Of a DNA stretch of 64,000 nt, positions 1 through 52,800 are shown piece after piece; position 1 is the first letter of the stretch, and each line of letters opens with the position of its first letter. Made by a program: the position numbers and the translations under genes. Under the pieces are notes generated by a model. The model was not told the origin of the DNA. It made no database searches and saw nothing but the letters and a program-made list of their open reading frames with translations. Source of the stretch: Physcomitrium patens (lineage: Eukaryota > Streptophyta > Bryopsida > Funariales > Funariaceae); NCBI RefSeq assembly GCF_000002425.4, contig NC_037267.1, forward strand, positions 12,632,044 through 12,696,043. The letters are read 5' to 3'.

Positions 1-3000
1 ATCTCATGTGTTTTCAATGTGAATCATGGAGGTATTATTCTTATGACTATAAAAGAAGTTTAGAGTCTATGTCAAAAAATTATACAGTTAAATGAAGTAA
101 GTAGATTAACCTTACAATCAAATCCAAGAAGTTTTGTTTTTATAAGTACAATAGAGATAAGGATTAGTATGCCCAAGAAGTTTGAGGGAACAAGATCAAA
201 ATTTTAAAGATTTTTGCAATAAATTAAGTTCTATGTAAGGTTGCACTATTTCAAATATCCTAATGGATTTACTCAAGTTGAGTTCATATGTGCATTTCTA
301 TCTAAGATTAATCTTTCTTGGTTTGCACCTTTGATGGAAAAAAATTTACCACTATTATATAATTTGAATTCATTGTAGAAGTGTTTAGGGCCACATTCAA
401 AGAAAGTAATTGAAAATGAGTAGAATAAATTAAGCTCTTATTTTTATAACAAGATTTATAATTAGCTACTATATATATTATTGAATTCCAAAACTTTGCT
501 TGCCACATAGATTGGAATGACAAAGCCCTTATTAATCATTTTTTTTATAAATTAAAAGATAATGCCAAATATTTATTATTGATAATATCAAAAGTAGAAT
601 CTTTGAAAAAAATATTGCTCAAGCTATTACATGTAAAAATCAAGTATTTAAAAAGTATCAAGAATAAAGACTTAATTGGAGAGAACAAATCAAGTGATGG
701 TATCTCTTAAGTTTTTTGAAACTTATTTATTAAGGCTAAAACCAATGCAAATTGATACAATGTATATTATCTATGAGACTATTTCTTTATATGTAGTAAT
801 ACTAATATTTAAAGATCATAATAACATAATAATATTTAATATAATAAGATCTCCCTTCAATCTAATTATTTTAGGATTATTATAATTAAAAAAATATAAC
901 CTTCAAATAGATTAGATTTTTTATAATCTTAATTTTTTTTGTAGTTTAATCCAAAATCTTATTAAATAAGTAGAAATACACAAGTTTACTATATCCATAT
1001 TTTTATTGGTAGAAGCAAGAGCTTTTATGCATGTTGCAAAAGAAGAACCATTGAATAGAACTAGATTATGTCTAAGAACTAAGATCCTTCTAATTTGTAG
1101 CCATATAAATCCTGTTACAATATAAGACAATGTAGACTAGAATAAAATTGACGAGATCTAAACAAAATAGAACATAGAGGGTAAAATAGACTAAAAAAGA
1201 ATAAAATAGAATAAAATAATAAAAATACAAAATCAAACTTTATTAAGAGAGAAGAAACAAAGCTATACCTAAATGAATATCTAAATGGTCCTAGGCAATC
1301 CTATTTATACTTTATCTAACAATCTTAGAATTTTTTAGAACATTTTTAATAATAAGCTCTACTTAAATAACCACCTTGAGTCTTTTTTAGAATGTTTTAT
1401 GGTAGATCTTACATAGACTACTAATTTAGCCCTAATTCTAGAATTTTTAAGAGGAACTCCTATCTTATTTGTAAAGAAAAAATATGGATCTTTATAGATG
1501 TATATAGACTATCGAAGACTTAACAAGATCACTATCAAAAATAGATATCTTCTATCTTTGATTTTAGGACTTTTTAATCAACTAAATCAAACAAAGATCT
1601 ATATAAAAATAAATCTATGATGAACTTATAATCTAATGTGCATTAAAAAATTTATAAATAAAAAATTACATTTTAAACTAAATATGGGTATTTTGAATAT
1701 AATGTCATACCTTTTGGATTCACAAATATATCAATTATTTTTTAACATCTAATAAATAATGTCTTTCATGAGTTTCTTGATAATTTTGTCATCTATTATT
1801 TGGATAATATTTTAATCTACTTTAAGAACATAGAAGAGTAAGAAGTTCATGTTTGTTATGTGTTATAAAAACTTAGAGATGTAAGATTATATTCTAAGTT
1901 AGAAAAGTATATATTCCATATTCTTCAAGTTAACTTCTTAGGATACATCATTTCTAATGAAGGACCAATGATAGATCCAAAAAAAGTTTAGACTATCATA
2001 GATTGGAAAATTCTAAGAATATTAAGAGATGTGCAATGCTTTTTGAGCTTTACTAATTATTACCAAATCTTCATCAAGAATTTTTCTCAAGTTTCAGTTC
2101 TACTTATATGTTTGATTTGTTAAGACAAATTTAAGTAGAATAAAGAAATCATAGCATTATTTGATGCTTTAAAGAAAGAATTAACTTCTGTACTAGTCTT
2201 ATATTGTATTGAATTCTCTAAGATATTTTATATGGAAAAAAATGTATTAGACTTTACTTTTAATGTAATATTATCACAAATGGGAGCAGATGATAAATCA
2301 TATCTAATATTTTTTTATTCCAAGAAATTTTCAAGAACTAAGATTAATTATGAGATTCACAATAAAGAATTCTTTGCAATCATAGATTTATTTCAAGAAT
2401 AGCATTATTATTTAGAAAGTGCTTTGAGTCCAATCATTGTATATATAGATCTCAAGAACCTTAAGTACTTCATGCCGGCACATATTTTGAATCATCACCA
2501 AGCTTGTTGGAGTATGTCTTTATGAAGATTTGATTTCAAAATTACTTATTGACTTAGAAAACAACAAGGTTTGTTGAAGGCTCTTTTTAGATATTTTTAT
2601 CTTCTACCAAAAGAAAGAAATCCATCTTTTGATCAAAAAAGAATATTTTTCTTAAAGTTGGAGCATTTTTACCTCAAACAATTAAATCAACATTAATTAT
2701 TGATTCAATTTTTATCAAGTAAATTAAATCAAGTATGTCCTCTAATCTTCTTATTCATGATATCAAAAATACTTCCTCTAAGTATCATGATACTTCCAAA
2801 TTCAAGTTCAAAAATAACTTATTCTATTATGAGGGACGATTATACATTCTAGAAGGTAAGGTACAATTATATATCCTTCAAGTTTGTCATAATTTTCTAA
2901 TAGATGGACATTTTGGATACAACAAGACTTTGGAGCTAATATCAAGAGATTTTTGATGGCCTCAAATATAGAAGACAGTTAAAGACTTTGTACAATCATG

Positions 3001-4250
3001 TGATATTTGTTCAAGATCCAAAATTCCTTGCTATCAATCTTATGAACTTCTTCAACCATTACCTATTTCAAAACAACTATGGTCTTGTGTTTCTATAGAT
3101 TTTATCATGAATCTTTCAATCTTAGATTTAATTGATTCTATATTTGTGATAATAGATTATTTTTATGAAGATGGCATATTTTATAGAATGTATAAAATCT
3201 ATCACAAGTAAAGAAACATATGAGTTTTTTCTTGACAAAATCTATTGCTATTATGGATTGCCCAAAGATATTATATCAAATGCAAAAATTCAATTTGTAT
3301 TAAGATTTCAAAGAATATTTTTTAAAATTTTAAAGATAGATATAAAGCTCTTTTTGACTTTCTATCTTCAAACTAATGGACAAAAAAAATAGTCAAATGA
3401 AGTTCTTAAGCAATATTTAAGATATACCATCAATTATAATTAAGATGATTGAACAACTCTTTTGCTATTGGTAGATTTTGCAAATAATAATTTGATACAT
3501 TTTTCTACTCAACAAATATCTTTTTTTATTAATTATAGTTATCATCCATAATTTGATACTTTTGACATTTCAAAAGTTCATAATCTTGCAAAATAAATTT
3601 TAAAAAATTATTTGTCATAGCTACATACAAAAATGAAGGTGTAGTTAAAGGAAGCTCAAGAATGACAAAAAATCAATGCACATGCCTATCTCAAGTTACA
3701 ACCACAATTCAATGTGAGTGACAATGTATGACTACTTTGTTGCAATATCAAGACTACTCGTCCTTGTGACAAGTTGGACTATTGTAGGTTTGGACTTTTT
3801 TTTTATTTGTGAACAAATCAATCATATTTTTTTATCAATTTCATCTATAGAAGTCTATGAAGATCTATCTCATATTCTATATGTCTCTTCTTGAGCCATA
3901 TAAGACAATGAATAACTTAGGAAGAAGTCAAATGCCACCTCTTCTTATAAAAATAGATAATAATCAAGAATTTGAGATAAAGAAGTCTTAGATTGAAGGC
4001 AATACCAAAATAGGTTAGAATATCTTATTTTTTGTCGTAGATATGATATTATTGAATGCACATAGAAGCTAGTAAAGAATCCTACAAATATAGGAAAGAA
4101 GATTGAGGTATTTTATCAAAAATATCCATGAAAAATAAGATGAAGAATTCTAAGATCCATGAAAGATAATGACTGCTCCTTATAGAATTCATTCCTAGAA
4201 GGGCAAATAATATCATAGATATATATAATTATTATAATATTTACCTATAT
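1..4250 (+). mobile_element. Ty3/gypsy LTR retrotransposon fossil (gag-pol debris)
   Basis: Strongly decayed LTR retroelement, plus strand, running in from the left edge. Recognisable parts in order are gag-like and protease-region debris (about 1-1,150), reverse transcriptase (about 1,440-2,150), RNase H (about 2,160-2,500), then integrase with its zinc-binding N-terminal part and core (about 2,735-3,400) and a weak integrase C-terminal region to about 4,000. The RT-RNaseH-integrase order is that of Ty3/gypsy elements. The copy is broken many times over and looks old. It is extremely AT-rich and poor in CG dinucleotides, as expected after long methylation and deamination in silent chromatin. 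Confidence 0.85.
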
Positions 4251-11854: not shown

Positions 11855-14800
11855 TTAATGTAAGTAAGATCCCACTTCGAATTCGTCTGAAGGATAGGAC
11901 AAGGGCCGGTACTGGGGATGCTGCCTCCGACTCGGATGCTTTTTATCGTTCAGCGAACTCTCCTGTTCAAATTTGTGCCAATCTGCAGCTGCATTACTCA
12001 ATTTGGCAGCCACGTCTTTCATTTTTGGACGGTATCTATGCTCGGTCTGCACACATTGCAGAGCCAGGGCTATGATGGCGTGAAAAGAATCCACTCCCTG
12101 AGGTGGCTCCAAGCTGGGGTCCAATACAGCCGCAACGTCTTGTTCATACATCTCAGCAGCCCAGCTTGTGATGTTTCTCCTCTCGTGCACCACCTTCCGC
12201 CCACTGAGAATCTCCAGAAGCACAATTCCAAAGCTGTAGACATCACTCTTGGGCGTGAAAGAACCAAGGGAAGCATACTCCGGGTCGAAGTACCCTGGAG
12301 TACCCCCCATGCGTGAAGCCCACAGCATTTGCGCATTTTGGTCGTGGCTAGAGAGAGACAACCCGAAGTCTGAAATGTGGGCCTCAAGCTTGTCATCTAA
12401 CAAGATGTTGGCTGGCTTAACATCGCCGTGGATGATCATGGTGGTAGCATACTCGTGCAGATACTCTAGTCCCTTAGAAGCTCCTGCGGCGATTTTCAGT
12501 CGCTCTTCCCAGCTCAGTGGCCTCCCTAGACGGTTCTTGTGGAGACAGTCTTCCACAGTTCCATGTTGCATGTATTCGAACACAAGCACATGTTCGTCTT
12601 CGCAGTAACCGATCAGACGCACTAGACACCTGTGGTTCAACTTCGACAGGAGGTCTAATTCTTTGTCAAATGTGGACTTGGCAACGTCGACCTCTGGATG
12701 AGGTTTTTTAATGGCTCGAACCACGCCGTGTAGCTCTCCCCTGTATACACTACCACAGGCGCCCTTCCCCACGAGAGCCGCCTCTGACCAGTTGTTGGTT
12801 GCTTCCTCGAGCTCCTCCATTGTGAAACAGACCACATCTCTGCCGAGAGATTGATTACCCACTGGCCAAGCTGCAGCTTTGGAACTCTTTTGCCTACGGC
12901 ACGTAATTAGCACATGTATAAGAGCTATTAGATTGGAAACAAGAAAATATCAAATTGCATGAAATGAGAACTTCCGAACCCTGAACATTCAAGCACTGAA
13001 AAACCCTTATTGAAGCAACCAAGTTTAAATCCGCACGGATTTTGAAACATAATAGAACCCCTTGCTAAACGTACTTTCAATCGACGTGTATAGATAGATG
13101 TGGTTTAATCATACCGAGCAGGAGAACCAGAGATAGCTGAGTTAGGCCGGGGGGTGGATAATTCAGATGAGCCCCGCTTAAAGCCGTTTCCACCCTTGAG
13201 TTTTCCAGATAGGGATTTCTCTGAGCTTGCAGATTTGGTTGCTACAACAGAAACCTGGTTTTCTATCTTCCTGTCTTCGAATCTGCGCTTGCAGCAATAC
13301 AGGGTTAAGAGTGCAGCAACTACCAGGGCAAGCAAAATACCTCCAATAGTTACGCCGATGATCACATCTCTTGATGGTGAGCTCTTGGTGTCACCGGTTT
13401 TGGGGGCTTTGCATGTGGGAGGACAGTTGCAAACACGCTCTTCATATGAAACGCCGCTGGTGTCATTGGTGGGGCATAGAGGGTTCGCAGGGGCTACGAC
13501 ATTAGGACATGTGTTTAACTCTGAGAGGGTCACCTGAAAGAATGATCCCAACCAAAAGACAATTATAAACGATCATTCAAAGTTGACAAGAACCTCAAAC
13601 ACTAAAGGCAAGAGATGGAGAATTGTGAACAATCTTCATTATCACTGTGTCACTTTAGTTTGTTTGAGTGATTTGGTACTTACATTGCAAGAAAGAGGCT
13701 CAGGAGTGACAGAGACGGAATCATCAGTCGGACGATTAGCTAAGGCAGCAGAAAAGTCGGTGGTTGCAAAGGAGCCTAACTCGGTCAAGAGAACATCGGA
13801 CCCCACTACCCCTATAAGTGTGTAGTTGTCCGGGGCAAAGACGGGATAAGCAACAGTGATAACCAGTCCAGAACTTCCACTATCTATGTAAGGTTTACTC
13901 CAGTAGGGCTTGTAATTAACAGCCTGTAAGCGCCATCGCGCTATAATTCCAAAGTAAGATCGCAAGGTCCAAAGAGGATTCAGAACAGTCTTCTCAATCC
14001 GCTCATATGTCCCACTCACATTGCAAGCTACCTGCGGCAATACTGTCTTAGAAAGATCACGATCAAAGCTGTAGAACAATGGTAGAACCCTCCGTGACCT
14101 CAACTGTGTAAGGTATGGGCTCGTAGAAGTCAGAGTAGTATCGTCTGCAAAATGTCCGTCTGTAAGGACAACCATGATTTTAAGGGCATTGGAGTTGGAT
14201 TCCGGTAAAAAGGTTTGATTGACTTTAAGAATCCCTGATAAGAAATTGGAGGATCCTTGTTTGGCATCCACAGACAATTTATCTAGTTCATCTTTTAAAG
14301 GGTTCATGAAAGTAGTGTTGTAAGTGGCTGTCGTCTGCAATCAACGCAAAGGTGTTAGTTCTCTACGCAAAGACTCGAGACGAATTAGTCTCGTGTAAAT
14401 GTGCCCAACATTCCCTGGCTTTTGTCCATTGCAAATGAAAATGCAGCGAGTAAACGCGTGAATCTTCAATAGATGCTTGGCATGGGCAATGTGGACTTAC
14501 CGTGTTGTACACCAAGTAGGGTTCGGTGGAACTTGAGAATAAAACAACTGATACACGATCACCATAGGTTAGGGTGTCCAGAAGGGCCTTGATAATATTG
14601 ATAGATGTATCGAACTTTGTGACGCCTTTGGAAATGAAGATATCAACAGGTAAGTCATCTCCCATTGAGTTTCCACCATCCAAAAGAATGACGAGATCTT
14701 TCGTTACGGCTGTAGCAGCCTTATACCTGTACACACAAGAAGAATATAATGGATACAAATAATGTGACCTAGGCACTGTCGATTCAAACGGTGGGGATCT

Positions 14801-16321
14801 TGATCCTCTTCACAAAACGATCAACAGAAGGTATAGTGAAACCCACCATGGACGCTTGCGTGGATCGAACAAACAATTTTTCCGTAACACGTCCTGAACA
14901 ATATCCACATCCACATCCACAACAATATTCAGTCAACAGTTTCAAATATTGCAACATCGTGTCCCGGGCTATTTCACTCCAGTCATATTCATAGTTTCTA
15001 GCTACTTGTTTCAATTAAAAAGGAACCCAAATGTCAAGTTTCCCGCAATTCTTATTCAACATTATTTGTATCCATCGTGAGTCCTAGTTCAGAGCTTACA
15101 CGACCAGGAAATGAACGTTGCACTCCTTCCACTGATCCCAGGTAGAACCACGAAGTGAGGTTGATTGCACTGTTATGGCGATTTGAAATCTCCAGAAACA
15201 CGGGATCAAGCATTCTCTGGCTGCATATTGTGTAGTTGGCTGCAGTTGTCAGAGTTACGTTGGGCGGAGTAGAAACTCTGCCAATTAACAAAGATCGCGA
15301 GCGTAAGGTCATCGTTAATAAGTTTCTGGAATCTATTCTGTTATAGAATTTTCTACGCCCCACTCCTTGGACAATGCTCACCCAATGGAAAATGCGATAA
15401 AAGTAACAATAAAATAAAATAATATCATGCTAAAGTAATAGCCCTGAGAATCATGCCTTCTTCCAAACTTGTAAAAAGTTATTGACGTCAAGAAAGTCAT
15501 GTGGGTACCTAACAAAACTCTTGGAGAGAATGACTCGAAGCTGGGAACATCCATAGTTGCCACTTGAATCAACACAAGTAGGATTTTTGGCAACATTCTT
15601 GCATATCAACAAGTCAAGGTCTCCTGCCAAGGGTTCGCATGACTGCCTTGAGCAGCTATCACCGCAAGAAGCCACTAAATCTGCAATTTACGTACTCGTG
15701 TTATTGCATGGATATCTGAGGTGCTCAACTTAGTTCAGTCCACAGATTCTAGAGAAGCAGTACTGTAACCTTGCTTCACCTAAGTTCAAATTTTCAAAAA
15801 AACCTGTAAACTCTCCATATCTAACACCGATGTGTCGGTTTTGATCTTCTAAAGGAGCCTAATAAACAGGCGGACTGTTAAGTGCAACCCACTGAGGATG
15901 AACGCACCAACCAAGCCTGGAAAGAGTATTTCGAGAGAAATTGTGCACCATCGTAATCTTGTACTGCAAAAATATGGCTTAGTATATGGGTGAGAAACAT
16001 ACCACAAGTGTTAGCAAAATTTTCGGTGGCTTTTGCGGCAACTCTAATGACCTCTTTTTCGATATTGTCCAAATACGCAACGGTGTCGTTGAGGCTTTGT
16101 GCCCAGCACACATCGTAAGCCTTTCCAACTAGCAACAACACAACTAGTAAGAAAAAACGGTGCAATCTGCATTGTCCCTGTCTCCTTCGCTCCGAGGAAT
16201 ACCTTGTTTCAGCACCTCTTCCTATCACCCCCTTCCTACTGATACTAGTGCCACAGTGAATGCCCACCATTTCTAGAAGCATCCCATATACAAGTCTTAA
16301 GACTCCTGCCTCACTCAACAC
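11855..16321 (-). CDS. Receptor-like kinase with VWA and dCache (alpha2delta-like) ectodomain
   Basis: Single-pass receptor kinase, about 1,049 residues in my model. Exons: 16,003-16,321; 15,509-15,680; 15,100-15,376; 14,847-14,893; 14,501-14,726; 13,684-14,334; 13,115-13,533; 11,855-12,893. All introns are GT-AG, phases match and the sum is 3,150 nt. Order: hydrophobic signal (about 56-66); first dCache part ending RPWY (270-273); inserted VWA domain with MIDAS-like DGGNS (288-292) and TDG (405-407); second dCache part with PYID (to D498) and VVGSD (to D527); Cys-rich juxtamembrane stretch; TM helix (about 621-643); Ser/Thr kinase with AIK (K766), E782, HGD (859-861) and DFG (879-881). HGD in place of HRD makes it non-RD. 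The ectodomain order is that of animal alpha2delta/CACHD1 proteins. It should act at the plasma membrane; ligand and targets are unknown. The third exon's acceptor (15,376 or 15,352) and the start codon are uncertain. Confidence 0.88.
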
Positions 16322-19629: not shown

Positions 19630-20226
19630 TAGACATCTTTGTATGAAAAGGCTTTCTCTTGAATAAATATTAAACATATTTGTATGTGATTAAAGATTTT
19701 TAAACCATGATTTTGAGGTCTAGTTGTATTTTTTTCAAAGGCAATTTTAATATTGACAATATGTTTGCAAGTTGTATCATATACATGATATTTGGCATTT
19801 CAGATTTATTTAAATTAACTTCAAATTAAAGTGTTTTGTGGTTGATTGAAGCTAATTAAATGTGCATGTACCTATTAGATAATATTTTTAAAAAATAACA
19901 AAGTAGTTGAAGACATCAAAATTATATTTAAATGGGATTTTAAAATAAACAAAGAATATATTGAAGTTGAATTAGGTTTTTTAAAAAATATAATTTAAAA
20001 AAACGTATTTAATATGGATTATATTTTAAAATTAAAATTAAAATTATTCATATATTATATAAAATACTGTTAAAAATTAATAGCATCTAATATAAATAAG
20101 AGTATATTTGAAAAAATACTAAAATTAGTATTAATTTAAATATTTTAATTTATATAATATTATAAAATATATAGTCTTTTAATTTTATTTTATAAAATTT
20201 AGAATTTAAAAAGTTATATTAAGCTA

Positions 20227-20266
<40 letters not shown>

Positions 20267-20630
20267 TAGCAAAAACAATCTTTAGAATTGTCATCCATTC
20301 ATTCTCTTGTTTATCCATGTTCTCTTATTCTCTCATTCCTATGTTTGGTCAATAAAAAGTTTGCTTTATCTCTTTATCTTACATCTAAGTTATGTTATAT
20401 AATAGATATATAAACAAAATAAATAATACATATTTAAAATCTAATAAATAAACAATTCAATCATATTAACTTATAAGTATAAGTTTTATATTTAAAAGAA
20501 TTTATTTATTTAATTACTTGATATTAAAAAAATTAAATATTTATTTTTTTCTTCACATTCTTTCTATTTTAAAAAATAAAATATTTTTATAATAAATAAA
20601 TAATACCTATTTAAATTAATTACAACAAAA
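19481..20630. other. Very AT-rich DNA with AT microsatellites
   Basis: No open frame is worth naming. Contains a (TA)n tract (about 19,595-19,622) and a composite (AT)n(AC)n tract (about 20,231-20,266). It borders the gypsy fossil to its right and is probably older debris of the same kind. Confidence 0.5.
20231..20266. repeat. (AT)n(AC)n microsatellite
   Basis: An AT-dinucleotide run passes directly into about five AC dinucleotides, the same composite form as the tract near 8,343. Confidence 0.95.
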
Positions 20631-20639
20631 TAATATTAT

Positions 20640-22500
20640 TTAGATTTGAATTGGAATAATCTTAATTACTAAAACTTTGCTTGTATGAAAAGCTATTGAA
20701 TGAAGTTTATCATTTGCTCCTATTTGTGACAATATCACATTCAAAACAAAGTTTTATGAATCTCTTTCCATCAAAAATGCCTTATAAAAGCCTATACAAT
20801 ATAACATTGATGTAGAATTAAAAGTTGTCTTCACAACTTTAAATATTGCTTGTGCTTCTTTATTCTACTTAATTTTATCTTTACAAGTCAAACATGTTGG
20901 AGGAGTTGCAACTTGAGAAAATTTCTTCATGAAGATTTTATAGTAAATGATAAATAGCAAAAAATATTATAGAATATTATATTAAAAATATTATATGATC
21001 TTTTATTATTTTTGAAATCTTTTAATTTATGATAGTATAAACTTTCTTAGGATCCATTATAAAACCATCATTTAAAATGATATATCCTAAGAAGTCAATT
21101 TAAATTGTGAAAAATACACACTTTTCTATCTTGGAATATAGTCATATATCTCTAAGTTTATATAATATATAATAAATATAAAAATCATATTCTTATGTAT
21201 TCTTAAAGTAAATTAAACTGTTCTCCGAATAACAGACTACAAAATATTATTCATTAAATGTTAAAAAGCAACTTGTGCATTTGTGAGTCTAAAAAACATG
21301 ATATTATAATCAAAATGACTATGCCTAATTTAAAATGTAGTCTTCTATTCATCTCATTTTTTAATGCATAGTAGATTGTAAGTTCATCATAGATCTATTT
21401 TGATTTAGGTCTTTATTTGATTCAATAGATCAAGAAGTCCTAATATCACAGGTAGAAGATGCTTATTCTTGATAATAATCTTATTGAGTCTTTAATAATT
21501 TGTACACAATTTTAGTAATCAATCCATTTACTTCACAAACTAGATAGGTGTTCTTATCAAAGATTTTGAATGCCAAATGAAGTTCTTAGCTAAGTTCTTA
21601 TTAATATATTCCTTGATTCTAGACAACTTGCTCTATGATAAGCTATAGATTGATCCAAATGATGGTTGAGTTTCTTCTTGAATATCAATTGAACAATCAT
21701 AAAGACAATACTTTAAAAGAATATTTGCAATTTCTTCTAAAATATGTATTAATAATCTTGATACTAATATGAAATGTCACTTGAAGTCTTTCTACTATCA
21801 AAAATAGGTGTAGCATAATTGGTAAAATGTGATGTTTCTTTTATAGCATATATGAAGGCTCTTGTATATATCAAAAAAGATTTAGACTTATGATTTTTTA
21901 CTTGAATAATAGAAGTCTAACTTATACTAAAGAAAAAATCAAGGTTATAAGAAATTCAATCTATTTAAGAATTATACTTCTTTAGTTATAATAAACTTAA
22001 AATAACTAAATTGGACAGAGATCTAATAATGTTGAATATTATTAAGTAATTATATCAATTAACTGCTATATCCAAAGAAATAATTTTATAGATAATATCT
22101 TCAAAAGACAACAAACATTCATCTATGACTTCTACATTTATAAGCTCAATTTTCTTAAATGAAGGTATTTTTTTGTTTTTCAATGAAGTCTTTGTCTATA
22201 AAAGAAACTAAGGCTTTTGGACATAACAAAGCAAAGCCTTAGTGATTTGGTCCTAAATAAACATCCATTATAAAACAAGATAAAAAATCTGAGAAGAAAA
22301 TAAAACCCTTGATAGATGTAATACAAGATTTAGCTATTTTATGTAAATCAAAATATTGATGCTTAACCTTTAAGTTTTAATTTATAAAAATGTTCTACTC
22401 ATGAAACTATTCTTAAACATTGTCTATTTTGAAATCTAATTCAGTAACAAATATAACATTTGCAACCAAATTAAATTTTAAAATGAAATATTTTGGTTTT
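20640..22500 (-). mobile_element. Second Ty3/gypsy retrotransposon fossil (pol part)
   Basis: Read on the minus strand, this AT-rich block carries degraded pol. Its segment around 21,050-21,130 closely parallels the RT segment near 1,885-1,980 of the first fossil, including the C-terminal RT region. The protease/RT start lies toward 22,300 and the block fades out toward 20,640. It is broken many times, has no discernible LTRs and looks old, of the same family or a close one. Confidence 0.7.
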
Positions 22501-22958
22501 TGAAACAAAAAATCAAAATAAAATAAAATAAAAAATTACATTACATTACAATTTCAGCAACCTAAATCTGAATGTATTCATTCACGAGCCTTGAATGAAT
22601 TACAGCATATCTCAATATGTAGCAATTTGGTGGAACTAAAGTGGATCTTTCAGTTAAGATATGCACCAATTTGTATGTATTTGAAGGCATAAGCTACAAT
22701 TCCACAACATCAAATCATACTATGAACACTATAGATCTTGTAGTAATCTGGCTGTCTGAGCATAACAGCTTGTGATATCCCCTAATAATCATTCTGCAAC
22801 ATACCGCAGAAGCAAGTTAGAACATTACTCTTGAGGTTGCATGAAACAACTTTTTAGGCAAGCTGATAAGTAATAGCTATCCGCTCAACCATTGATTATC
22901 TGAGAGGCAGTCCAAAGATGTATTATACATTTTAAGACAGATTTCTGTATGATTGCAG

Positions 22959-25900
22959 TTAATATACTTTAAAGAAATCTGCAGATTTCGGAGTAAGAGG
23001 CAGGCTTTTGAGTACCTTGGACTGACTGATAGAAGAGATAGTTCCTCTGATGTTGCGAGCAACAACACGTGAAGCTACCCTTCCAGCAAGTTCGGCGGGT
23101 AGTAATACCGCTTGCTGACGAGCTTGAAAAGGAAGCTGAGAAAAACATAATGTTGAATTATGCTTGATTTCCTTATACAAGCAACAAAGACTATACAACA
23201 AAGGTAATGGGTAGTATTCAGACAAGACGTACACCATTCGCACACAAGAATCAATCACTAAAGCTTGAAAATAAAGTTTCAAGTGAGGTTCCAGCTTATA
23301 TGGACAAGCAGTAAGGTTAAGTAGTGCACCTCAGGAAAAATAGATAGGAATGGTAAATATTGCGTCAAACCAGTAAGACTCTGTACAATATCAGTGATGT
23401 CGTCCATTGAAAGAGCTAAATTTTTGTCGTCTTCGTTCACGAACCGTGTCCTGTCCGCTAGGTAATAACTGTTCGTATTCTTGACAACCTGCGTCTTCGA
23501 CACCCGCTCATTCCCGTTACTGTTACTTCAATTGCTATCCCAATTTTTATCCCCTTAGTTATTCTCAAGCCTTGTTCTCTTGAGTGTTATTGGCTCATTA
23601 AGGTACCATACGATAAATTTACATGAAACTTAAAATTAAGTGCATGTAGAGCCCCGTAAAGCAATATAGAGCACATTATCAACTACTATCTTTGTGATGG
23701 TACCTGAGTATCAGAACGAGAGTTTATTGATGCATCTTCGATTGCAACTGCGTTTCCACCTGTCATGCCTGCTACAGTCCCAACTCCTGAACTTCCTGAA
23801 TTTCCAGATTTCATGAGTACTGTCAAGATCTGCCGGAGATTTTCTAGGTTCTTGAGATCCTCCTCTTCAGTTACAGGCGCAACAAAAGGAAGAGCTATAG
23901 GAGAACGTGTCAACACGTTGTGTGCAGCAGCATCAAAACTCACTCGATTCAACGCATCTATACCCTGTAATACCACCACTTCCAAATTTCAAGAAAATGA
24001 TCATCGAAAAATGCCGACATAGTCTTCCAGGTGCTTCGGAATAATATGTTTGAAGAGCATAAAGACATTGAGCTTCTCAATCACTAAAATCTAACATTTT
24101 CTTGAAGTATTATGCTTGATTTGAATTTGAGAGGTATCCAGCAAACACAAATCGTCCAAAAACTTGCATTCAAGTATGTATCACAACTGAAACATTCTAT
24201 ATCACCAATCCTCACAGCACAGAGAGAAGTGAAACACACCTTAGCAAGTTCATCCAATATCAACTCCCGTACGAAATCACCCTGCCAATCAGCACTACGT
24301 GATTAATTTGGTAATTCAAATCGAATCGTGTTCTGAATCAAAGTTTCAAATTCTTTTGCATGCGCATGCACAATATTCTTGAACCCATGGGTTAACTGGC
24401 CATTGTTGGAGCCGTGACAGTTTTATCCTTGCATTTAATGACTTGAAAAACGATTCTATTAACATGTAGGGTTACACTTGCCTAAAACTCATAAAAAGTA
24501 GTTACAGAATATTCACGTGTTCATTTCGCACATCCGGAATGTTCATAGACAGGGAGGAGAGGACAGACAAGGACAAGAAAAGCACCTGCTCTGTCAGTCC
24601 AAAGATAAGAAGGCGTTTCACAAAATTCCGAGTATTCCTTTCTATTTCCACTTCTTCCTTCTCAGCAGGCCTGTTTATGTGCAATGCCGGGTCGTTCAGT
24701 GGCTGTCTCATTGACTGCACCTCAAGCATACGCCACATATCAATATGAGCCTATTCGCAAAAAGAGCTCTTAATTTTAAAACGGTTAATCATAACCCATT
24801 TGTAAGTGTATTACATATCACCGCTAAAACACCCAGAGTCAATTTAGATTCTCAATATACTACAATCTGATTTTTTAATAAACTGCGTGAGCACAAATGA
24901 TGACCTAAGAATAATAATTTTCCTTAAATAATTTAGTGGAGTGGTAATAGAAATCAAAGAAAAGTATGAGAAAATCAAATAATTGATTTCTACCATCATG
25001 TATACGGCACAATCTGCTAGGTTCAACAAAAACGATGGAGGCACCCACCTCTGTTAATAGTGACTCCAGGCGATTGATTCTAAAAGAGCCATTCTGTTGA
25101 TACACAACTCTCAACATTATTAAGATCGTAGTAACAACCTTGCATCACAGAAAGAATCCACCACAAGTACCGCATATGTCATAGACAAAACACTAGAATT
25201 GAAAAATGTCTTGTGAACTGCGCTCCTAATTCTATTCACATTTTTATCCGACGAGAGTTGACTGTGTTGTAATAGCAAGCCCATGTAATAGTTAACAAAA
25301 GACAAATAAATGGACCCGTCAGCTTTGCTTTACACAAGAGAAAGGAAGATATATCATGTACTTTATAAACTATTTCTTGAAGAGTTGACCGAAGCTTTGG
25401 AGATTTATCAGTGAGGACTTTCCGCGCTATCCATGGATACGAACTACCCAATACTTTATAATTGGGGTCACTGCTCAGCGCAATGCCTTCGAGTACCGTC
25501 AGACTGCGAAAGAAAGATATTCAAAATGAAATGAAAATATGATAAATTGAGTGAATGTTCGGTAAATATAGCACTACTTTAACAACTCTTCATCAACCTT
25601 GACAACATTCACAATCAAATTGTGAAAAGTAATACAAGTCTTAAAAGAATACGAATAGTTGAGAGAGAGATAACGGGATCCTTGAAGGTCGCATGACGTG
25701 AGGAAGAAAAAAGTCGAGTAACAGATCAAAGATGCAAAATTAGACGAATCACCTTCGAATAACAAGCGAAAAGTAGGGAGGAATGCGGAACTTAAATTTG
25801 TACCTGGAGCAAGCAAAAGGATCCAATCAACCAATGATCATATCTAGACACTGCATCATGTCCCTGATCACCATATCAAACTACTGATTTACAATATACA

Positions 25901-28900
25901 ATACACAAGGGTATTAGATAACATCCGGATTACATATTGATCAGCTGTTGTTTCTGAGTTGAATCCAATGTTAATCCACAAGTCTAATGTATTCAAGAAA
26001 AGACGAAATTCTGACAGGTGAGGTCAACTCGATGCATCAACTAACCACGGACATCTAGTGATTATCGGTATACGTACATGGTGACACCTAGTTTCCCTGA
26101 CAAATCTCCAAAGCTTATATTCCGAACGCCCTTGCTTACCGCATCTTGGAACACACCTGCAGCATCTCACAAAAAAATTAAAAACCAAGAGATTGATTGC
26201 ATGGCCAGGAGAAGTAAAGGCAGGATTGCCTGAACCTGTGACCAGAATGCGACCAGAACAAATGAGCTGCTGATCCTCTAATCCAGTGCTTTGACCTGAG
26301 CAACATCATGGCAGGCTTTCTCGTACCTGTAAGGGCCTTAGAGACCTCACCCAATTCTGCAGTTGGTGGGACGAGCCTGCCATAACAAACTTACATAAGG
26401 TTATTTTAAAAAACGAACACCTTTCAGATATTCAATGCGATACATACACACAACCGGATACATTTAGTCTTCCTTCCAATCTAATGTTCAACATGTCGTT
26501 AACCATCCGTTAGCAAAACTTTAACCAACTTCTCACTTAAAGTCGCAAACGCCACCAATTTTTAAGTGAAATTGAGAAGTCAATATTTACCCGAGAGTGA
26601 CAAAGTCCCCAGCAAGAAGTTCGTATTCACGGTTGACAAGGTGGACTGAGGCCTCAATCAACCCATCTCTAAGATTCTCCCTCATTTCACCCATCATTCC
26701 AAAATCTGAACACATCAACAGGCCACGTGAGGAGGCAATACGAGAAACATGCCAAGCGGTAAAATTTACTAGGAATTGAAAGCTGGTGGTAACAATTTCT
26801 AGAAATCTAGATTATGAACCTCAAAATCTCCTATTCCAGCAAATCACACAAGTACTCAATCAATTTAATATGCTAAAATACAAATCAAAATTAGCGTGAA
26901 GAAAAATGCGAAAATCAAGTTGAAGTTCTTATGTTGGAATATTGTAGATAGCTATTTTCTGAGCGTCAAAATCTCATTCTAGCAAAAAGGTGGAACAGTA
27001 CCTAGATAAGCTAATTTGCCGTCTGGAGTACGCAATAAGTTTCCGGGATGTGGATCCGCATGGTAGAAACCACTATCCAATAATTGTGTAAGTGAGCAAA
27101 AAACTCCTACCTGATTGAAAAATGAGAAGATCCATACTTAGTGAACTATCACTAAGCTAAGGTCGTGAAAGTGATGAAAGTCGAAGTTTCCATGATTATC
27201 CTTATAACGTTCATAATGCAATCTTCACAAGTTCTTCAACGACTTGTCTACACAATACTAAGAAGTATTACTGATTGGTGCAATTGTACTACCTCAACTA
27301 AGCGAAGGTCACTGACTTCTGACAATCGTTGTCCCTGCAGAGAAGCGAATCAGAACGGTTAGCACAACTATCTACTGGTTAATATTAAACTTCTATTAAT
27401 TTTCATTAGTATTAGAAGGAAGAGTAAACTATATCTTCCTCCTGGCATGCCTCTTTTGTTCAGAAACAACGAGAATTAACAATCAGTGCTTGTGCGCAAA
27501 GCTAGCTTCAATCAAGAAAAGTAAGGGCGTACCTCAACCCATTCCATGACAAGAACCCGACGACTAGTTAACTCTGAATACATCTTTGGTACTACCACAT
27601 CAGGTAAATTTCCAAACATTTTCCTGCCGTGCACATCAATGTTAAATTTAAACTTATTTCCGATTTCAACTGCTGATCGTATTCGACGAAACAAAAGTCA
27701 TTCTAAATTAGACGTCCCTAAGGCGTAGACGCATTATTAATAACATCGGACTTTGTAGTAAGTGATTTTTTTCAAAATAACAGTACAATTATGTCACAAA
27801 GCATGCAAACAAAAGGACCAGTACTAGTTCCATTCGTGTCAAGTTCATGAGAAATTCTCGACAAGCAGGAACATGAAATCGGTTGTAAACGAAGGTTCTC
27901 ACCGAAATCGCGAACCATTACGAGCCTCTGCTTGGTAATCCATTTCCTGCAATTCCAAACCTTATCATATTAATAACAGTGATGCTTCTATGGTTATTAT
28001 TTCGGAAGATGTTAAGTAGTAAGTAAGTAAAAGGAAAATAGCAGTGATTGAATTTACTTTGAAAAGACTTGAAGCCCATTCGTCAACAACACTCTGCAAA
28101 AGCCAAAAGATACCTGTCAGCACCAAAGAATAAAAAGAAAAACTTAACATTTGCATATTCATGTTCTCTGATGCATAATCGCCACCTTGGCGAGTAGCAA
28201 TCTACAACTTCTCTAAACTATCAATGACCTACCCAAACGATCTGCCCTACAATTAAAAGGTTTTAATAGAAAAATTACACCAAATCACTGACAGCAGCCT
28301 GCTACATTGGGCCTTGACAGTAAGAGTGCACAAGTAAATATAAGTACTAAAAGTTATCTCAAAGGTAGCTCACAAAGATTTAACACGACGAGAATTCATG
28401 AATAATAAAGAAAAGAAAGGGGTTTTAACTGGAAGATCTGTGTTGAGTTTCAGCGATGTCTTTGCGAATTTTGCGAGTTGACGCAAAATATAAAGATCAA
28501 GGGCCATGGCTGCTCGAACCCCAGGGCGTTGCACCTTAACAGCTACTGGTTCACCATTTGCACGCAATAGTGCCTGGTAAACCTGTAACAAAAAGCATTT
28601 TTGGTACGGACAGACAATTATCAATTGCAGAATTAAGGAGAGGATAGAACATCAACAAAACCACTTTCGCAAATCTATCGAAGACCTACTATTGTTTGGT
28701 AGTGTCTATTGTTGAAAGATTAGACTGCTCAACAATTGGATGTTGACGTAGAGGTCAACCACTAAAGCCATATTTCTAAGTCATTTTAAGTATACCTGTC
28801 CAAGAGAAGCAGCAGCAACCGGCTGTGGTGAGATCTCAGTGAAAAGCTGCTCTACAGTAACCCCAAGTTCTTGCTCAATTATTTGAAGGGCGAGTTCCGT

Positions 28901-36000: not shown

Positions 36001-37259
36001 CTGATATGCCTTACTTCCAATGGGTCAATTTTGAGTAGTTGCATTTTATCATGATTTAATGCTAACCTGGCTTCTGAATTGAAATTCAATGTAGGTGGTC
36101 AGCCCATTGAAAGTGATGATCCTAGGTGGGAAATGTATGTGACACTTGAAGGAGAAGGCCCAGATATTATAGTTACTGGGTTTTGCACGGTCTATCGCTT
36201 TTTCCGGTACCCTGACAGCACGAGGTTGAGGATTGCACAGGTTTGTAATCACCATTCTTCAGCTCTTACTCGCATACACACACGCATACACATCTTTGTC
36301 TCCCTCGCTCTCGCTCCCTCTGTGCGTGGATGTGAACTAAAGAGGATGTGGTGTTCCAGGCTTGAAGATTGAGTAACAGATTGAGAACTTAGTCATGTAT
36401 TTGTCGGTAGTTCCTATGTTTTTTGCTAATTTAAATTCTTTTCCTTCCTTCGTTTGAATAGATTCTGGTACTACCCCCTTATCAAGGACAAGGATATGGA
36501 CATCGGTTGCTGGAGACTATCAACAGAATAGCAGTGGAGCGCGACTGCTATGATATAACCTTCGAGGATCCTTCAGATAGCTTGCAAGAGCTGCGCGACT
36601 GCATGGATGTGCAGCGGCTTCTGCAGTTTCCTCCTGCTGTCTCGGCGCTCTCCTTGTCTATAGCAAGATTGCGTAGGATGGCTGGAGGTGGGGGCGAGAC
36701 TGCAACGACGTCAGGACTGGACCCGAAATCGAATACCTTCACCAAGGGTAAGAAAAGAAACTCAGATGTTGATACCGATGACAACATCTTGGTACCTCCT
36801 GCATCGGTTGTAGAGGAAGCCAGGAAGGCTTTCAAAATCACCAAGGTACAAGTGAAAAGGTGCTGGGAGTCTCTACTATTCCTGCAGTTGGCATCATCAG
36901 AGACGGGTGTAGTAGAATCGTTCAGAGAGCTCCTCATAAAGCGTCTCCACGCTGGTATATTTTCCAACAAAGATGAGGCAGTAGGACATGGGAAGCACAT
37001 CATTGACACGAAGAATGACTACAACATCAATAAAACTTTCATGATGATGCGTACTCCACAAAAGGAGACGAACGGCCACGACTCCAAAAAGATAGGTGAT
37101 GTTCTGGATGCCAGTGATGAAGAGAAAAAATTACAAGCCCTTCAAGAGCTTTTAGAGGAACGAGAAAATGAGCTGCAAGCTGTGGCCAACAAGGTATCTG
37201 CGAGGTGTAAAAAACTTGGCATCGCAGTGAAGGTCAAGGATTTAGTTAACCAAGCATGA
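33048..37259 (+). CDS. HAT1: Type B histone acetyltransferase HAT1 (plant HAG2)
   Basis: Catalytic subunit of the type B acetyltransferase, which acetylates newly made histone H4 on lysines 5 and 12 before nucleosome assembly, with an RbAp46/48-type WD40 partner. Exons: 33,048-33,132; 33,920-33,967; 34,267-34,382; 34,493-34,561; 34,712-34,759; 35,070-35,146; 35,218-35,392; 35,810-35,891; 36,095-36,240; 36,462-37,259. The sum is 1,644 nt (547 residues) with all phases matching. Seen in sequence: N-terminal HAT1 domain with NADEAI; GNAT motif A as PPYQGQGYGHRLL; acidic FEDPSDS region matching the family's catalytic Glu/Asp. The last exon adds a Gly/Thr-rich linker, a Lys-rich patch and a Glu-rich, coiled-coil-like C-terminus ending VKDLVNQA. 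The protein is longer than animal HAT1 (about 420 residues), mainly through this tail. The first ATG fits because it precedes the conserved FSDD...KRRKL start. Confidence 0.95.
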
Positions 37260-42500: not shown

Positions 42501-44938
42501 AAAGAAGAATGTCAAAAAATCCAATGGTCCTGTGACTTGGCCAATACAAGTCCATCAAAGTAAAACGAAGTCAAAAAGCATTCCTGGTAAACACCCCACT
42601 AATCTCCGGGAGGGATCGACCTTCAGTTACAAATCAATTCAGCGGAATGTCCTAGATCTGAAACTCTAATAAAAAACTGAACTTTAATTCAGTAAATTTT
42701 GTATCCCATGTAAACCCAATTCAGAAAATTTTACTCAGAGGCAATACTCGAGATGAAATGGCAAGCTACTGGTTAAGTACTAAAATATGGGCTCGGTCGG
42801 TTCTCCTCAAACTTCTTTTTACGAGGAACCTGTACACTAGTTGAATTTTTTTGTAGTTATTTAATTTATATATGTTTCTAGTTTTTTTAAGAGACTAGAG
42901 AGAATAGTCACTCGTAGATTGTAATTTAGTTTCGAACGAGCATTCAGCCTAACACTTCCCGTGAACATTCTGTTACGTAAGATTTCTTTGACAAGTATGG
43001 GTATTACAGGGGATAAAAAGCGTGAGCGCAAGAAAATGATTGCTGCAAAGCGACAGGAGCGCGCACTACGAAGGGGGCTTGACCTGCAGGCCATCAATTC
43101 GGTGCAACATCTGACCTGCTTCATATATAAGCTGTGACATGATTAGCTTGTGATAACCTACGGAGCTGTGGGAATCGTCATGAATGGTGTGTTTTCTTGA
43201 ATTCAAAAGATGCATATTCTGGTTGGACAGGCATTGGAGGACATTGTTTTGCGTGGCACTGATATCTATGCGTTTGGTCCAATGGAAAATCGGGATCGCG
43301 CTCAGGTGAGAGCAATTGCAGATGCCTTCTTCTGTAGTTGAGCAGTCTGTTCACTAGTATAAAATCATGTGGCCTCCCTTACGTAAGAGATTTTAGGGTA
43401 TCAGACACCCATGGTTATATGTTACGAGAAGCTAACTGTTTTATGTCTTCGTCTATCTTTTTTCTCTATTTTTTTACGTTTTATCTTTTCTACTAGTGTA
43501 AATAATCAGGCCCTTCCTTTGTCTAACTATGAGCAGATCCATAAGATGGCAGCGATTTATCGATTGAAAAGCGGCAGTCAGGGTACGGGCAGTAAGAGGT
43601 AAGAAAGATTTAATCGTAAAATGCTTTTCCCTTTGAAATATCTACACGGATGTCAACGTTAGGTGGTTCCAGTACATGTATTATGCTTCTAGTTGTCCCA
43701 TTTTTATTCAAGCTGTGATCGAACAATTTTTACTGAAGCCACTCTACCTGAATGACAGATTCACTGTGGTGACGCGTACTAAACACACCAAGCTGCCTAC
43801 TGGTGCCGACAAGTATCGCATTGCCTCGGTAAGCCATAACTCAGAGGTTTATGCCGCACTGACTTCTGAAATGATGAAATTTCTAAGTGTGGTTTAAGTG
43901 CCCGAGAATCTGATGTCTTTTACAGTCTAAAAATGAAACCGTATGTAATATGAGAAACGACCGTTTTGTCACAGGAACCTTAAACTGCAAAAAGATTTCT
44001 CGAACAGCTTACTCTCGTGCCTATCCACTCTTCATACTTTTATCCGTTGTGTGGGAATCGCTTCTGATCCTAGTATTTGATTGATTGTAGATGCTCGATC
44101 AAGCCGACGAAAACTTGAAAAGGTCACTAACAGGTGAAGCTCGCCGTATGGATAAGAAGGCCAAGAAGGCTGCTCGCGATGCTTTTATAAGCTTCAATAC
44201 ACCTAATCCTAAGAAGAGCGGGAAGAAGCATCAGAAGTTTATGCAAGGTGATGGATTCTCTTATTAGTTTAAACCCAAGAAAGGATAAGGCCCTTAATCA
44301 GATATAACAGCTGTAATTTTCAACTATTGTTGTCTTCCACTGTCTGTTTTTTAGTTGCATTTAGCCTCGTTTACTGGGATGTCATTAAGTCTCAAATAAT
44401 TCTCTGACTGATTTCTATGGTTAATCTGAGAATTTATTGATAGATGGATCTTTGCAGAAATCTCAGTAGTGAATGTCCTCTCCCAAGTGCTAACATGGTA
44501 AAATTCCTGTGCTGCGCAGCTTCAAAGTCAATGGAGAAAAGTGGAAGACAGAAACTGAGAGCTCCAAAATATGCAAGTAATCCCATGTCCTTCATCTCGT
44601 GTGGGACTATTGGCAATGAAGAAGAATCGTTAATCCTAGAAGCAGGGCCATCAGAATGTGTAACTACCACGGTTCAAACATCTAGCATGACTCAGGGAGG
44701 GGAAGCAACGACTAGCAGGTCATCTACTGTTGTGAAAGTTTCTTCTACCGTCCCTGCAACAATAGGCCATTTTGAGGCTCATACCAAGGGCTTTGGCTCT
44801 CGAATGATGTCTAAAATGGGATTTGTTGAAGGCCAGGGCCTCGGTAGAGATGGACAAGGTATTTACAGCCCCTTGGAAGCTGTGAAGCGCCCAAAATCGC
44901 TAGGCTTGGGTGCCTATGCACCATCAACACCTTCTTAG
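39518..44938 (+). CDS. R3H and G-patch domain protein, Sqs1/Pfa1-like
   Basis: Nuclear RNA-associated protein. N-terminal RGG-like run (exon 39,518-39,641), then phase-matched exons at 39,987-40,064, 40,383-40,564 and 40,634-40,676, and more up to a long acidic/Ser-rich exon (about 41,086-41,867) with an Asp tract near its end. Exons near 42,070-42,360, 42,466-42,586, 43,015-43,115 and 43,230-43,305 follow. The R3H domain spans about 43,270-43,830, with NRDRAQIH giving the RxxxH motif. A Lys-rich exon (about 44,092-44,250) leads to the last exon, which ends with a G-patch (44,788-44,920: GFGSRMMSKMGF, GQGLGRDGQG). R3H followed by C-terminal G-patch is the architecture of yeast Sqs1/Pfa1, which activates the DEAH helicase Prp43 in splicing and ribosome biogenesis; that role is inference here. 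Middle-exon boundaries are approximate. Confidence 0.88.
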
Positions 44939-49864: not shown

Positions 49865-52800
49865 TCAATCAACAACTTCGTCTACTAGATGGACTTCACC
49901 GTTTGCCTCCTCCTCCGCAAGGTCCTTTGTGTAGCAGTTGTGTAGAGTTGTGGTGTCATCAACCTGCATGTTTTGAATGGCATCCCGGTTTTCCTTCTCA
50001 GAATTGGCAACATATGCATCGCTCATGTTGTCCTCATTATTATCAGCCGATTGAGGAAGAGGAAATATTGCCCATGCTTTTACGGACATGTCATGAGCAG
50101 CAGTCTTCTTTAGAATGTACTCTCTGAGCAGACTCGGCCGAAGTTGTCCATGACGATCCTGTTCTACTCAACACACCACATGAAATCTATCTGAGCTACT
50201 CGCAGAATGGCATAATTTTGATTGGGTGCTTTGCAATTGCAACCAGTGGCTAATGATATCGATTACATCAAAAAGGGGAAATTATAGTGTTGGATTGCAG
50301 TGGACCTTCTTGCGCAACGTGGCATGCCAATGGTTCTTAATGCTATTGTCGGTTCTTCCTGGCAGCATCTGTAGCCATCATCGTGCAAACAGAAAGGGTA
50401 GATGTTAATTTGGCAAAGCAAAAAATAGTAACAGTATTCTAACCAAGTATTTTCACGTGAATATTCATATAGCTTGGTATCTCTTCCCCAGGGTACAAGA
50501 GGAGGATTTTGTCTCTAAGCCCTTTCAAAGCTGGATATATTATGTATGAATATAGAAAACTACTGGGTCTCAACTATATCCCGCATGGTGCTATTAGCTT
50601 GCATACACCATACCGACTATTTGCAGGTAGAACGTTTGCAACTGGGTCCAACAAGTCGAACTTAAAGTTCTAGCTTCGAATGTGCAGTAGCCATGCAATC
50701 ACCCAATCCCCGCCCACATGTGTTCATCAAAATAGTCTGTAACTTGCGGCAATGCAATCAGAGATGGCGGCGCCCAATATCTTGTTACAAACCTTTGCAA
50801 TGGCAGACCACCTGTTTCCAAAGGTTGAATGTGCATGAACAAGTAGCTCTTCTTCCTCAGTTGTCCAGCCCTCCTTGCGTATATCTGGATGTAAATGATT
50901 CACCCACCGCTCCCTGCATTGTTTTCCGGAGCGGTCTGTTTGTTCCATTCCCACAGTAAACATGTCAGCGCTGATTTCCTCAACTAATGGTAGGCTTTAC
51001 ACCGCACTGTTGAATAAGATTTAACAATCACGATGAATCTTAGTTTCTATTCCAGAGGTGGAGCTCAACGATGTGGTGAGAACCCCACAAATATATGGAG
51101 CAAAAAGTATGTCTTGAAAATCCCTCCACCTCATAAAGAAAATAACGCAGTTACGAAAAAACATTGCCGTCTGAGACCGAAAGAGAGGTTATCTTGGTTT
51201 AGCAAACATAACATACTGGCGTGAGTACATACGTCCAGTCTCTCATACTTACTGGCAATGTCCGAATGACCCAGAATTGTCAAGAGTAAGATTTTAACAT
51301 ATCATATCCCATTAGATTATCTGGTGTTTTTGAAACGGAGGCATTTGTGTGCAGAAAATACACATGATTGATGTACTCACTTGCCATGAACGTCGATATG
51401 AGCGACCAACGCCGGGATCCATACTGCTTCACCAACTTTCTCAGAACTCTGTCCTCTGCAGCGCCCCATTGTCCTTTCATCCCAGGTTGCCGAAGAGTAG
51501 AGCTGCTTTTGTCCATTGGCACTGTGTGGACCTCATGAACGTCACCCAACGGGACATAGCCCAGCGCTGTTGCATTTGCAAGATCGAATGTTTGGTGTTC
51601 ACTTGGTGCAAGACCACCAACTTGCATTTTTAATGGATCATTTGGGCTAGTATACTGGCCGTTCTTTCTCATCAACACATGTTTATCCTGGCCCAGAAGG
51701 TTACAAAATTCAGGAGATGAAATCCTGCCACCAGAGCAACGACCACCTTGATGAGAGGAGTAGACTACACCTGCAGATTCTGACGGCTCCCTCGCAATAA
51801 ATTCCGGAGTTCTGCCCAGCTCATTCCTCTCCTCTCTACGATCTCCGGATTCTTTTGATGAAAACTCTGGGGTATGCACAGACCAAGAGGTAGCATAAGT
51901 CAGCGACTTAGACTGCGCAATAGAGAGCAACTTAGGCGAAACTTCACAAGTGAGAGCTTGTTTAGAACGTACCGTTTACTAGGGAGATGTGCTCAACTGA
52001 ACTTGACACTATTCCGGGGTCGGATCCCTGACAACCTTCGGCTGGTTCGTGTCTTGAACCAATACCTGCCGGTGAACCGATGCTGATCCTAGAGTCAGAA
52101 GAATGGCATTTCGGGTCATGCTCTGATCTTTCGTCTCTCCTCGTGATTTTGTCACTGCACGCCGATTGACCCCGTTGGGATCCCGGTAAATTTGCAGTCG
52201 GTGGAGTGAGAGTTGTAAACTCCGGGTTCATACATTGCATGTAGCAACCTGCGACCTTTGGGTTTGAGGTTGGTCGTAAGAAAGGGGAGTCATACGAGGT
52301 CATACAGCTAAAAGCACTCTGTGCTGAAAGCTGAAAAGGGGAGCTGGAACTCGGTAAGGACGCGCCGGAACAGAAATCACGCGAAGCGTTGAACACATCG
52401 GGCGAAGTGGAGGAGGCAGATGACACTAGGAAAGGAGTATGAATGACTTTAGTAGAGGCTGGTGCTGGGACGCACTGTAAACATCGAGGCGAATAAACTG
52501 AGGAAGCACCCACTTGGCTCCACAAGCCAACACCTGGTTGCAAGCCATTCCGTTGTGCTGCTCCGTGGTCAGCTGAATCAATGGGATCGATATTCACGAG
52601 GCAGCTCATGGCAGGCATCAAGGAGCCACAAGGAACACGGCAGTGATGTTGGAGACAATCCTCTATGCAATGAGCGCTGTCCTGAGGAATCAAAGCACCG
52701 CTCGAAGTGGGTGCATGGAAGAGCCTTTGACCAGGCGATACTGCTGCATATTGAGATGAATACTTGTACTGAGTTTGTTCAGATCCTGCCTGCTTCCTCT

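Follow-up and report, generated by a model that had tools for sequence, protein, structure and literature searches.

A Physcomitrium patens receptor kinase gene with a VWA-in-dCache ectodomain of the alpha2delta type

The closest described relatives of the ectodomain considered here belong to the calcium-channel subunit alpha2delta-1, the transmembrane protein CACHD1 and the bacterial chemoreceptors PctA and PctB. In alpha2delta-1, a VWA domain is inserted in the first of two dCache domains, and a delta part and a glycosylphosphatidylinositol anchor take the place of a transmembrane (TM) segment and kinase. CACHD1 has a VWA-dCache ectodomain with a second Cache stretch and is not known to carry a kinase, and PctA and PctB are not known to have a VWA insert or a Ser/Thr kinase. 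Some dCache domains share an amino-acid motif, reportedly first set out in a 2022 PNAS paper. It comprises R-x-W-Y in the first Cache half and Y...D in the second, the R corresponding to the gabapentin residue Arg241 of alpha2delta-1 and the D to Asp491 (PMC9901441). In two further sources, Cache domains of plants and fungi are limited to histidine kinases (PMC4822843), and VWA domains accompany alpha-kinases in other eukaryotes, those of P. patens lacking them (PMC3019232); these alpha-kinases are a different family from the kinase described below. Here we report a receptor kinase gene in a 64,000-nucleotide stretch of the moss Physcomitrium patens (NCBI RefSeq assembly GCF_000002425.4, contig NC_037267.1, positions 12,632,044 to 12,696,043; hereafter the window) that joins an alpha2delta-like ectodomain to an RLK/Pelle-type kinase. 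Plants were not previously known to attach such a sensor to receptor kinases.

The gene occupies positions 16282-11855 on the minus strand and consists of eight exons encoding 1,003 codons and a stop in one continuous frame, with seven introns that are all GT-AG (Table 1). A first-pass annotation of this DNA had proposed the same eight exons in one frame, beginning at 16321; the first in-frame ATG lies downstream at 16282, with none between. Spliced alignment of a Ceratodon protein (P0002) without prior splice sites recovered introns 2-7 exactly, from the exon 2 donor to the exon 8 acceptor. Intron 1 falls outside this alignment because P0002 lacks exon 1. The exon 2 acceptor is backed by P0001, a 1,015-residue protein from a public assembly cluster, whose single open frame spans every exon and which is identical to the gene model apart from residue 214. 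The source label of this cluster, lgn, is read here as denoting Logan read assemblies; the cluster contains six member sequences and 21 contigs, the longest of 4,839 bases. Since the gene has seven introns, P0001 derives from either a transcript or a processed copy, and we take it as a transcript. Because P0001 carries kinase and ectodomain in one frame, the two are joined in one protein, and the splice from the TM exon to the kinase exon in the first-pass annotation is borne out. Hydropathy, on which the signal peptide and TM calls rest, gives a single hydrophobic N-terminal stretch and a single TM helix, consistent with the layout of a putative signal peptide, an ectodomain, one TM helix and a cytoplasmic kinase.

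Sequence and profile comparisons identify the ectodomain as a dCache domain split by a VWA insert. Pfam places the kinase (residues 698-956, E = 5e-39) and the VWA domain (residues 236-407, 2e-11) above cut-off, and matches MCP-like_PDC_1 at residues 443-487 (1.8e-5; 25.6 bits, cut-off 27). Because Pfam leaves Cache below cut-off, the Cache assignment rests on profile searches, in which both halves are recognizable despite the missed dCache_1 cut-off. Among solved structures, the single window sequence matched alpha2delta-1 over residues 175-469 (295 residues, 8e-9). A profile of seven plant sequences matched alpha2delta-1 (5e-25) and CACHD1 (8s7c; 4e-20), as well as PctB (2e-5) and PctA (7e-5), while one Riccia sequence alone reached alpha2delta-1 at only 0.009. 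We rejected the possibility that the VWA domain alone caused the alpha2delta match, since VWA-free Cache pieces from eleven sequences (window residues 140-236 and 430-500) still matched both alpha2delta-1 and CACHD1. The N-half piece matched CACHD1 (1.4e-10), alpha2delta-1 (1.6e-9), PctB (6e-5), further chemoreceptors and a diguanylate-cyclase sensor. The C-half piece matched a histidine-kinase chain (4e-7), CACHD1 (6e-6), alpha2delta-1 and PctA (both about 1e-3), and further histidine-kinase and chemoreceptor chains, the last match up to E = 1 being a CBS-domain protein (0.82). The likeness to PctA and PctB extends over the two Cache halves, the RPWY region included.

The position of the VWA insert agrees with that in alpha2delta-1, because in alignments the motif Tyr and the first VWA Asp are separated by the same 15 ungapped residues in both proteins; CACHD1 likewise carries its VWA domain at this point. 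In an AlphaFold2 model of P0001, the ectodomain blocks mostly have a predicted local distance difference test (pLDDT) score of 65-93, falling to 55-61 across approximately residues 111-150. In a Foldseek search with this model, the top eight matches were all alpha2delta-1 chains or came from channel complexes containing alpha2delta-1 (E = 4e-19 to 3e-17, over 450-493 columns). What corresponds in alpha2delta is its first dCache and not the protein as a whole: the stretch from Cache to TM helix (residues 525-574) is too short for a second dCache, and VGCC_alpha2 gave no Pfam match at E up to 1. CACHD1 is also a transmembrane protein with a VWA-dCache ectodomain, but the RPWY of the plant proteins is RPIY in the first Cache half of CACHD1. 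These results uphold the earlier assignment of a signal peptide, VWA-in-dCache ectodomain, TM helix and Ser/Thr kinase to one protein of the alpha2delta/CACHD1 type, along with the motifs DPRKRPWY, DGGNS and VVGSD, all of which are present. The domain searches it had proposed found VWA as expected, whereas dCache_1 stayed below cut-off and VWA_N was absent here and weak in 5 of 30 relatives.

All elements of the amino-acid motif have counterparts in the window protein, with Phe as the first aromatic: F219, R224, W226 and Y227 in the first Cache half, where W226 and Y227 lie beyond intron 4, and Y450 and D481 in the second. We counted motif residues in 30 aligned relatives, 29 of which cover the first block. 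R and W are each present in 29/29, Y in 27/29, the second Y in 27/30 and Asp in 22/29. The first ten relatives (P0001-P0010) are mosses or moss-like, four of them not matched to a moss, and the second Y and Asp are present in all ten. In contrast to alpha2delta, the DxSxS of the metal-ion-dependent adhesion site (MIDAS) of the VWA domain is not intact: the sequence is DGGNS, and the first Ser is Gly in all 29 sequences covering it. The distal MIDAS Asp is kept in 11/30 overall and in 9/10 of P0001-P0010. The retained motif and the altered metal site go beyond the first-pass annotation, as does a second set of P. patens receptors with another kinase, described below.

The kinase domain is of the RLK/Pelle type by both Pfam and matches to solved structures, the nearest being FERONIA (4e-56) and SymRK, followed by BAK1, BRI1, CERK1 and IRAK4 among others. 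As in plant RLK/Pelle receptor kinases, FERONIA and SymRK among them, it lies behind a single TM helix; the differences are the ectodomain type and the non-RD catalytic loop. The domain retains the glycine loop, AIK, the catalytic Asp and DFG. Kinase matches occurred in 9/30 aligned relatives, all within P0001-P0010; the tenth of these, P0008, ends before the TM helix and represents the front portion of the C2 gene. Among twelve P. patens loci outside the family that were tested against the kinase, the best match (L048) is presumably CR4-like. Non-RD kinases of plants have been linked to pattern recognition, and by this analogy a role of the receptor in immunity is possible.

The gene is under purifying selection. 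Against its paralogue on C9 (72% identity), the ratio of nonsynonymous to synonymous substitution rates (dN/dS) was 0.24 overall by the NG86 method. By part, it was 0.18 and 0.17 for the Cache halves, 0.42 for the VWA domain, 0.46 for the cytoplasmic linker and 0.09 for the kinase, the lowest of the parts compared. YN00 values were similar or higher (VWA 0.63, kinase 0.13), the C half having no YN00 value.

We estimate at roughly 55% the probability that this gene encodes a moss receptor-like kinase whose split dCache_1 sensor with VWA insert binds an amino-acid-like ligand and signals through its kinase. For ligand class, conformational coupling and downstream pathway, we infer the following scheme. 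A small extracellular ligand bearing an amino group and a carboxylate, such as an amino acid or close analogue, would bind the Cache pocket through R224, W226, Y227, Y450 and D481. Binding would shift either the VWA insert or the juxtamembrane segment and thereby affect how receptors pair and how active the cytoplasmic kinase is. Our best guess is an apoplastic amino-acid or amine sensor, and the sequence comparisons suggest that mosses may sense small amino-acid-like molecules with it. In support, random sets of five ectodomain columns rarely reached the conservation of the five strict motif columns (fraction 0.00035 for all 30 relatives, 0.0049 for P0001-P0010 and 0.0048 for the remainder), a comparison that ignores the relatedness of the sequences. 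Several points weigh against the proposal. The five MIDAS columns, with Gly counted as the conserved letter, were less strongly conserved (0.066 overall, 0.10 for the remainder and 0.021 for P0001-P0010), but in P0001-P0010 they too exceed chance. Conservation of RPWY could be partly structural. Among P. patens models, L068 has lost R and W, L058 has lost W and has its second Y unaligned, and L063 has lost Y and D. On the structural side, Pfam dCache_1 (residues 445-490) reached only 0.004 and 17.1 bits, far under its cut-off of 45. The P0001 model is weak overall (mean pLDDT 66, predicted TM-score 0.52), and the comparison with alpha2delta-1 suggested by the first-pass annotation, although yielding the best Foldseek matches, gave a loose superposition (root-mean-square deviation 7-9 A, TM-score 0.28-0.32).

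It is somewhat unlikely that the same architecture serves a ligand other than an amino acid, such as a purine, an organic acid or a peptide, with RxWY kept for the fold or for that ligand. dCache domains bind many ligand classes, the first motif aromatic is Phe in the window protein and in 16 of 29 relatives (Tyr in 13), and the motif Asp is absent from 7/29, all liverworts. Yet R, W, the second Y and D are invariant in P0001-P0010 where covered, and the best bacterial chemoreceptor matches include the amino-acid chemoreceptors PctA and PctB. A main role for the VWA domain in protein-protein contact, with cell wall, receptor or channel as in alpha2delta, and with Cache as a scaffold, seems improbable. 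Such a role would fit the retention of the distal MIDAS Asp in most of P0001-P0010 and the need of alpha2delta-1 and -2 for their MIDAS in channel enhancement (PMC9901441), but not the Gly at the first MIDAS Ser in all 29 sequences covering it, the absence of the distal Asp from most relatives, or the dN/dS between the two closest paralogues, which shows weaker constraint on VWA than on either Cache half. We give little credence to the idea that the receptor signals through an associated kinase, its own being weak or inactive. The non-RD loop in all nine kinase-bearing homologues and the DFR replacing DFG in the C1 paralogue (P0009) could be read this way, but the window gene preserves the P-loop, the Lys, the catalytic Asp and DFG, and its kinase has the lowest dN/dS of the parts compared. 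Finally, we rejected the explanation that two neighbouring genes were joined or splice sites mis-chosen; nothing observed favours it, and it has a negligible probability given P0001, the introns recovered with Ceratodon, and the C9 paralogue, which has eight exons in the same phases with one boundary placed differently.

The proposed amino-acid sensor belongs to a gene family in P. patens, of which we modelled 15 loci besides the window, genome search counts being lower bounds. Group A, with a single-exon non-RD kinase, includes the loci on C9, C2 and C1 (20.38 Mb). The last (L057), modelled with P0009 as splicing guide, is letter-identical to that protein (UniRef: Physcomitrium patens). Group B, with a multi-exon kinase, comprises L064 (C1, 19.46 Mb), L067 and L068 (C10, 2.28 and 2.29 Mb), L070 (C6, 16.43 Mb), L071 (C27, 2.65 Mb) and L069 (C16, 7.85 Mb). 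The C27 model has one stop; the C16 model has two and was excluded from both trees and motif counts; and the C-terminal ends of group B models are unsure. Four of the five group B models used for trees have an RD catalytic loop, L068 having HGD, and 4/5 retain the full motif. In group C (two loci on C7, C10 at 2.51 Mb and C1 at 18.74 Mb), a kinase was not found in the DNA fetched around the loci. The C8 locus is a fragment with two stops. L058 (C3, 12.68 Mb) combines an ectodomain of the window gene's group with one in-frame stop and then a degenerate kinase of another type (HLG, VFG), and looks like either a decaying gene or a third ectodomain/kinase combination.

Ectodomain introns recur in groups A, B and C near window residues 94, 151, 211, 226, 302, 354, 466 and 519. 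Few genes carry all of them, and positions shift by some residues, partly because the models are protein-guided. Unlike these, introns in the kinase parts differ between groups. Group B kinases share a mean of 38% and at most 42% identity with those of group A, compared to 52% with another P. patens kinase. In a tree including sixteen other kinases that we chose from genome-search matches and the C3 locus, group B was nested among other kinases (97/92). An A+B clade was not rejected by the approximately unbiased test (p = 0.137) or in the ectodomain tree (p = 0.319, with a long-branch warning). At least two distinct kinases thus carry this ectodomain in P. patens. A single origin of both moss fusions is disfavoured because of the kinase tree, exon layout and identities, and two captures by different kinases appear the better reading of these sequences, short of proof.

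Kinase fusions were found in Physcomitrium, Ceratodon, Sphagnum balticum and further public assembly sequences. Uncharacterized VWFA proteins of Riccia fluitans, Riccia sorocarpa, Marchantia polymorpha, M. paleacea and Klebsormidium nitens have the same ectodomain, with a TM helix in 5/5 checked and no kinase. Each protein search scored about 8,000 candidates, from which absence elsewhere does not follow. A profile search of protein databases added only two Klebsormidium proteins and missed even members of its own alignment, and carries no claim of absence for vascular plants, hornworts or other algae. The receptor class had been proposed as bryophyte or early land-plant; as far as seen, the early land-plant scope fits the ectodomain, which extends to liverworts and Klebsormidium, while the kinase fusion fits mosses. 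The K. nitens proteins KFL_006550020 and 006550030 (P0015 and P0016), from a streptophyte alga, have consecutive gene numbers and read RRRPWY/F where alpha2delta-1 reads RRRPWY. Among P0011-P0030, kinase-less VWA-Cache proteins also have adjoining gene numbers in Riccia sorocarpa (R1sor_025677-025680) and Riccia fluitans (R1flu_026147-026164 and 026425-026429), which suggests tandem expansion in liverworts. In prokaryote loci picked by an RPWY pattern (at least 26 open reading frames), the first Cache half was matched in 26, the second in 18 and VWA in none; no bacterial donor of the whole VWA-in-dCache module was among the matches listed for these loci.

More tentatively, and with more doubt than confidence, we suggest that VWA-in-dCache may be an ancient eukaryotic module, arising by one insertion common to animals and streptophytes and joined at least twice to moss receptor kinases. 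Plants would then have, in receptor-kinase form, a counterpart of the animal gabapentinoid-binding site, responsive to amino acids of the apoplast or to analogues of these. The moss fusion would make the age of the alpha2delta architecture testable. It would also offer a candidate cell-surface amino-acid receptor kinase for plants in a genetically tractable host, where known ligands, gabapentinoids included, become directly testable in knock-out lines. We found no description of a VWA-dCache/kinase fusion by title or abstract opening in the literature searched, which covered few subscription journals. Named relatives are labelled hypothetical, unnamed, VWFA domain-containing or protein kinase domain-containing in databases; the sequences are, as far as we found, public but undescribed.

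Table 1. Features of the receptor kinase gene, in window coordinates.
Feature	Position	Strand	Remarks
Exon 1	16003..16282	-	Start ATG 16282, N-terminal extension, hydrophobic signal stretch, start of Cache N half
Hydrophobic signal stretch	residues 43-62, about 16097-16156	-	In exon 1; hydropathy
Exon 2	15509..15680	-	Cys-rich start of Cache N half
Exon 3	15100..15277	-	Cache N half (TICSQ...GSVEGVQRSFPG)
Exon 4	14847..14893	-	FDPRKRP; first half of amino-acid motif (F219, R224)
Exon 5	14501..14726	-	Motif WY, junction to VWA, altered MIDAS DGGNS (about 14666-14680)
Exon 6	13684..14334	-	Remaining VWA (to about 14017) and Cache C half; second half of motif
Y450	13888-13890	-	Exon 6, Cache C half
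D481	13795-13797	-	Exon 6, Cache C half
VWA domain inserted in dCache	14017..14698	-	Residues 236-407, interrupted by intron 5; Pfam VWA 2.3e-11
Exon 7	13115..13533	-	Cys-rich juxtamembrane stretch, TM helix, start of cytoplasmic linker
TM helix	residues 575-594, about 13306-13365	-	In exon 7; hydropathy
Exon 8	11855..12893	-	Linker, whole RLK/Pelle-type kinase domain, C-terminal tail, stop
Kinase domain	residues 698-956, about 11999-12775	-	In exon 8; Pfam
HGD replacing HRD, non-RD catalytic loop	12422..12430	-	9/9 kinase-bearing homologues

Elsewhere in the window, open reading frames match GNAT acetyltransferase (36462-37256), G-patch (44444-44935) and Myb-like (51283-51975) domains, and are ordinary plant neighbours. 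Bacterial or animal contamination was rejected on the basis of the introns, the paralogues elsewhere in the genome, and the Myb-like and G-patch frames. GC content is 25-27% at 1-4000 and 20001-24000, compared to 35-46% in the remaining 4-kb blocks, and these two low-GC stretches are perhaps repeats.

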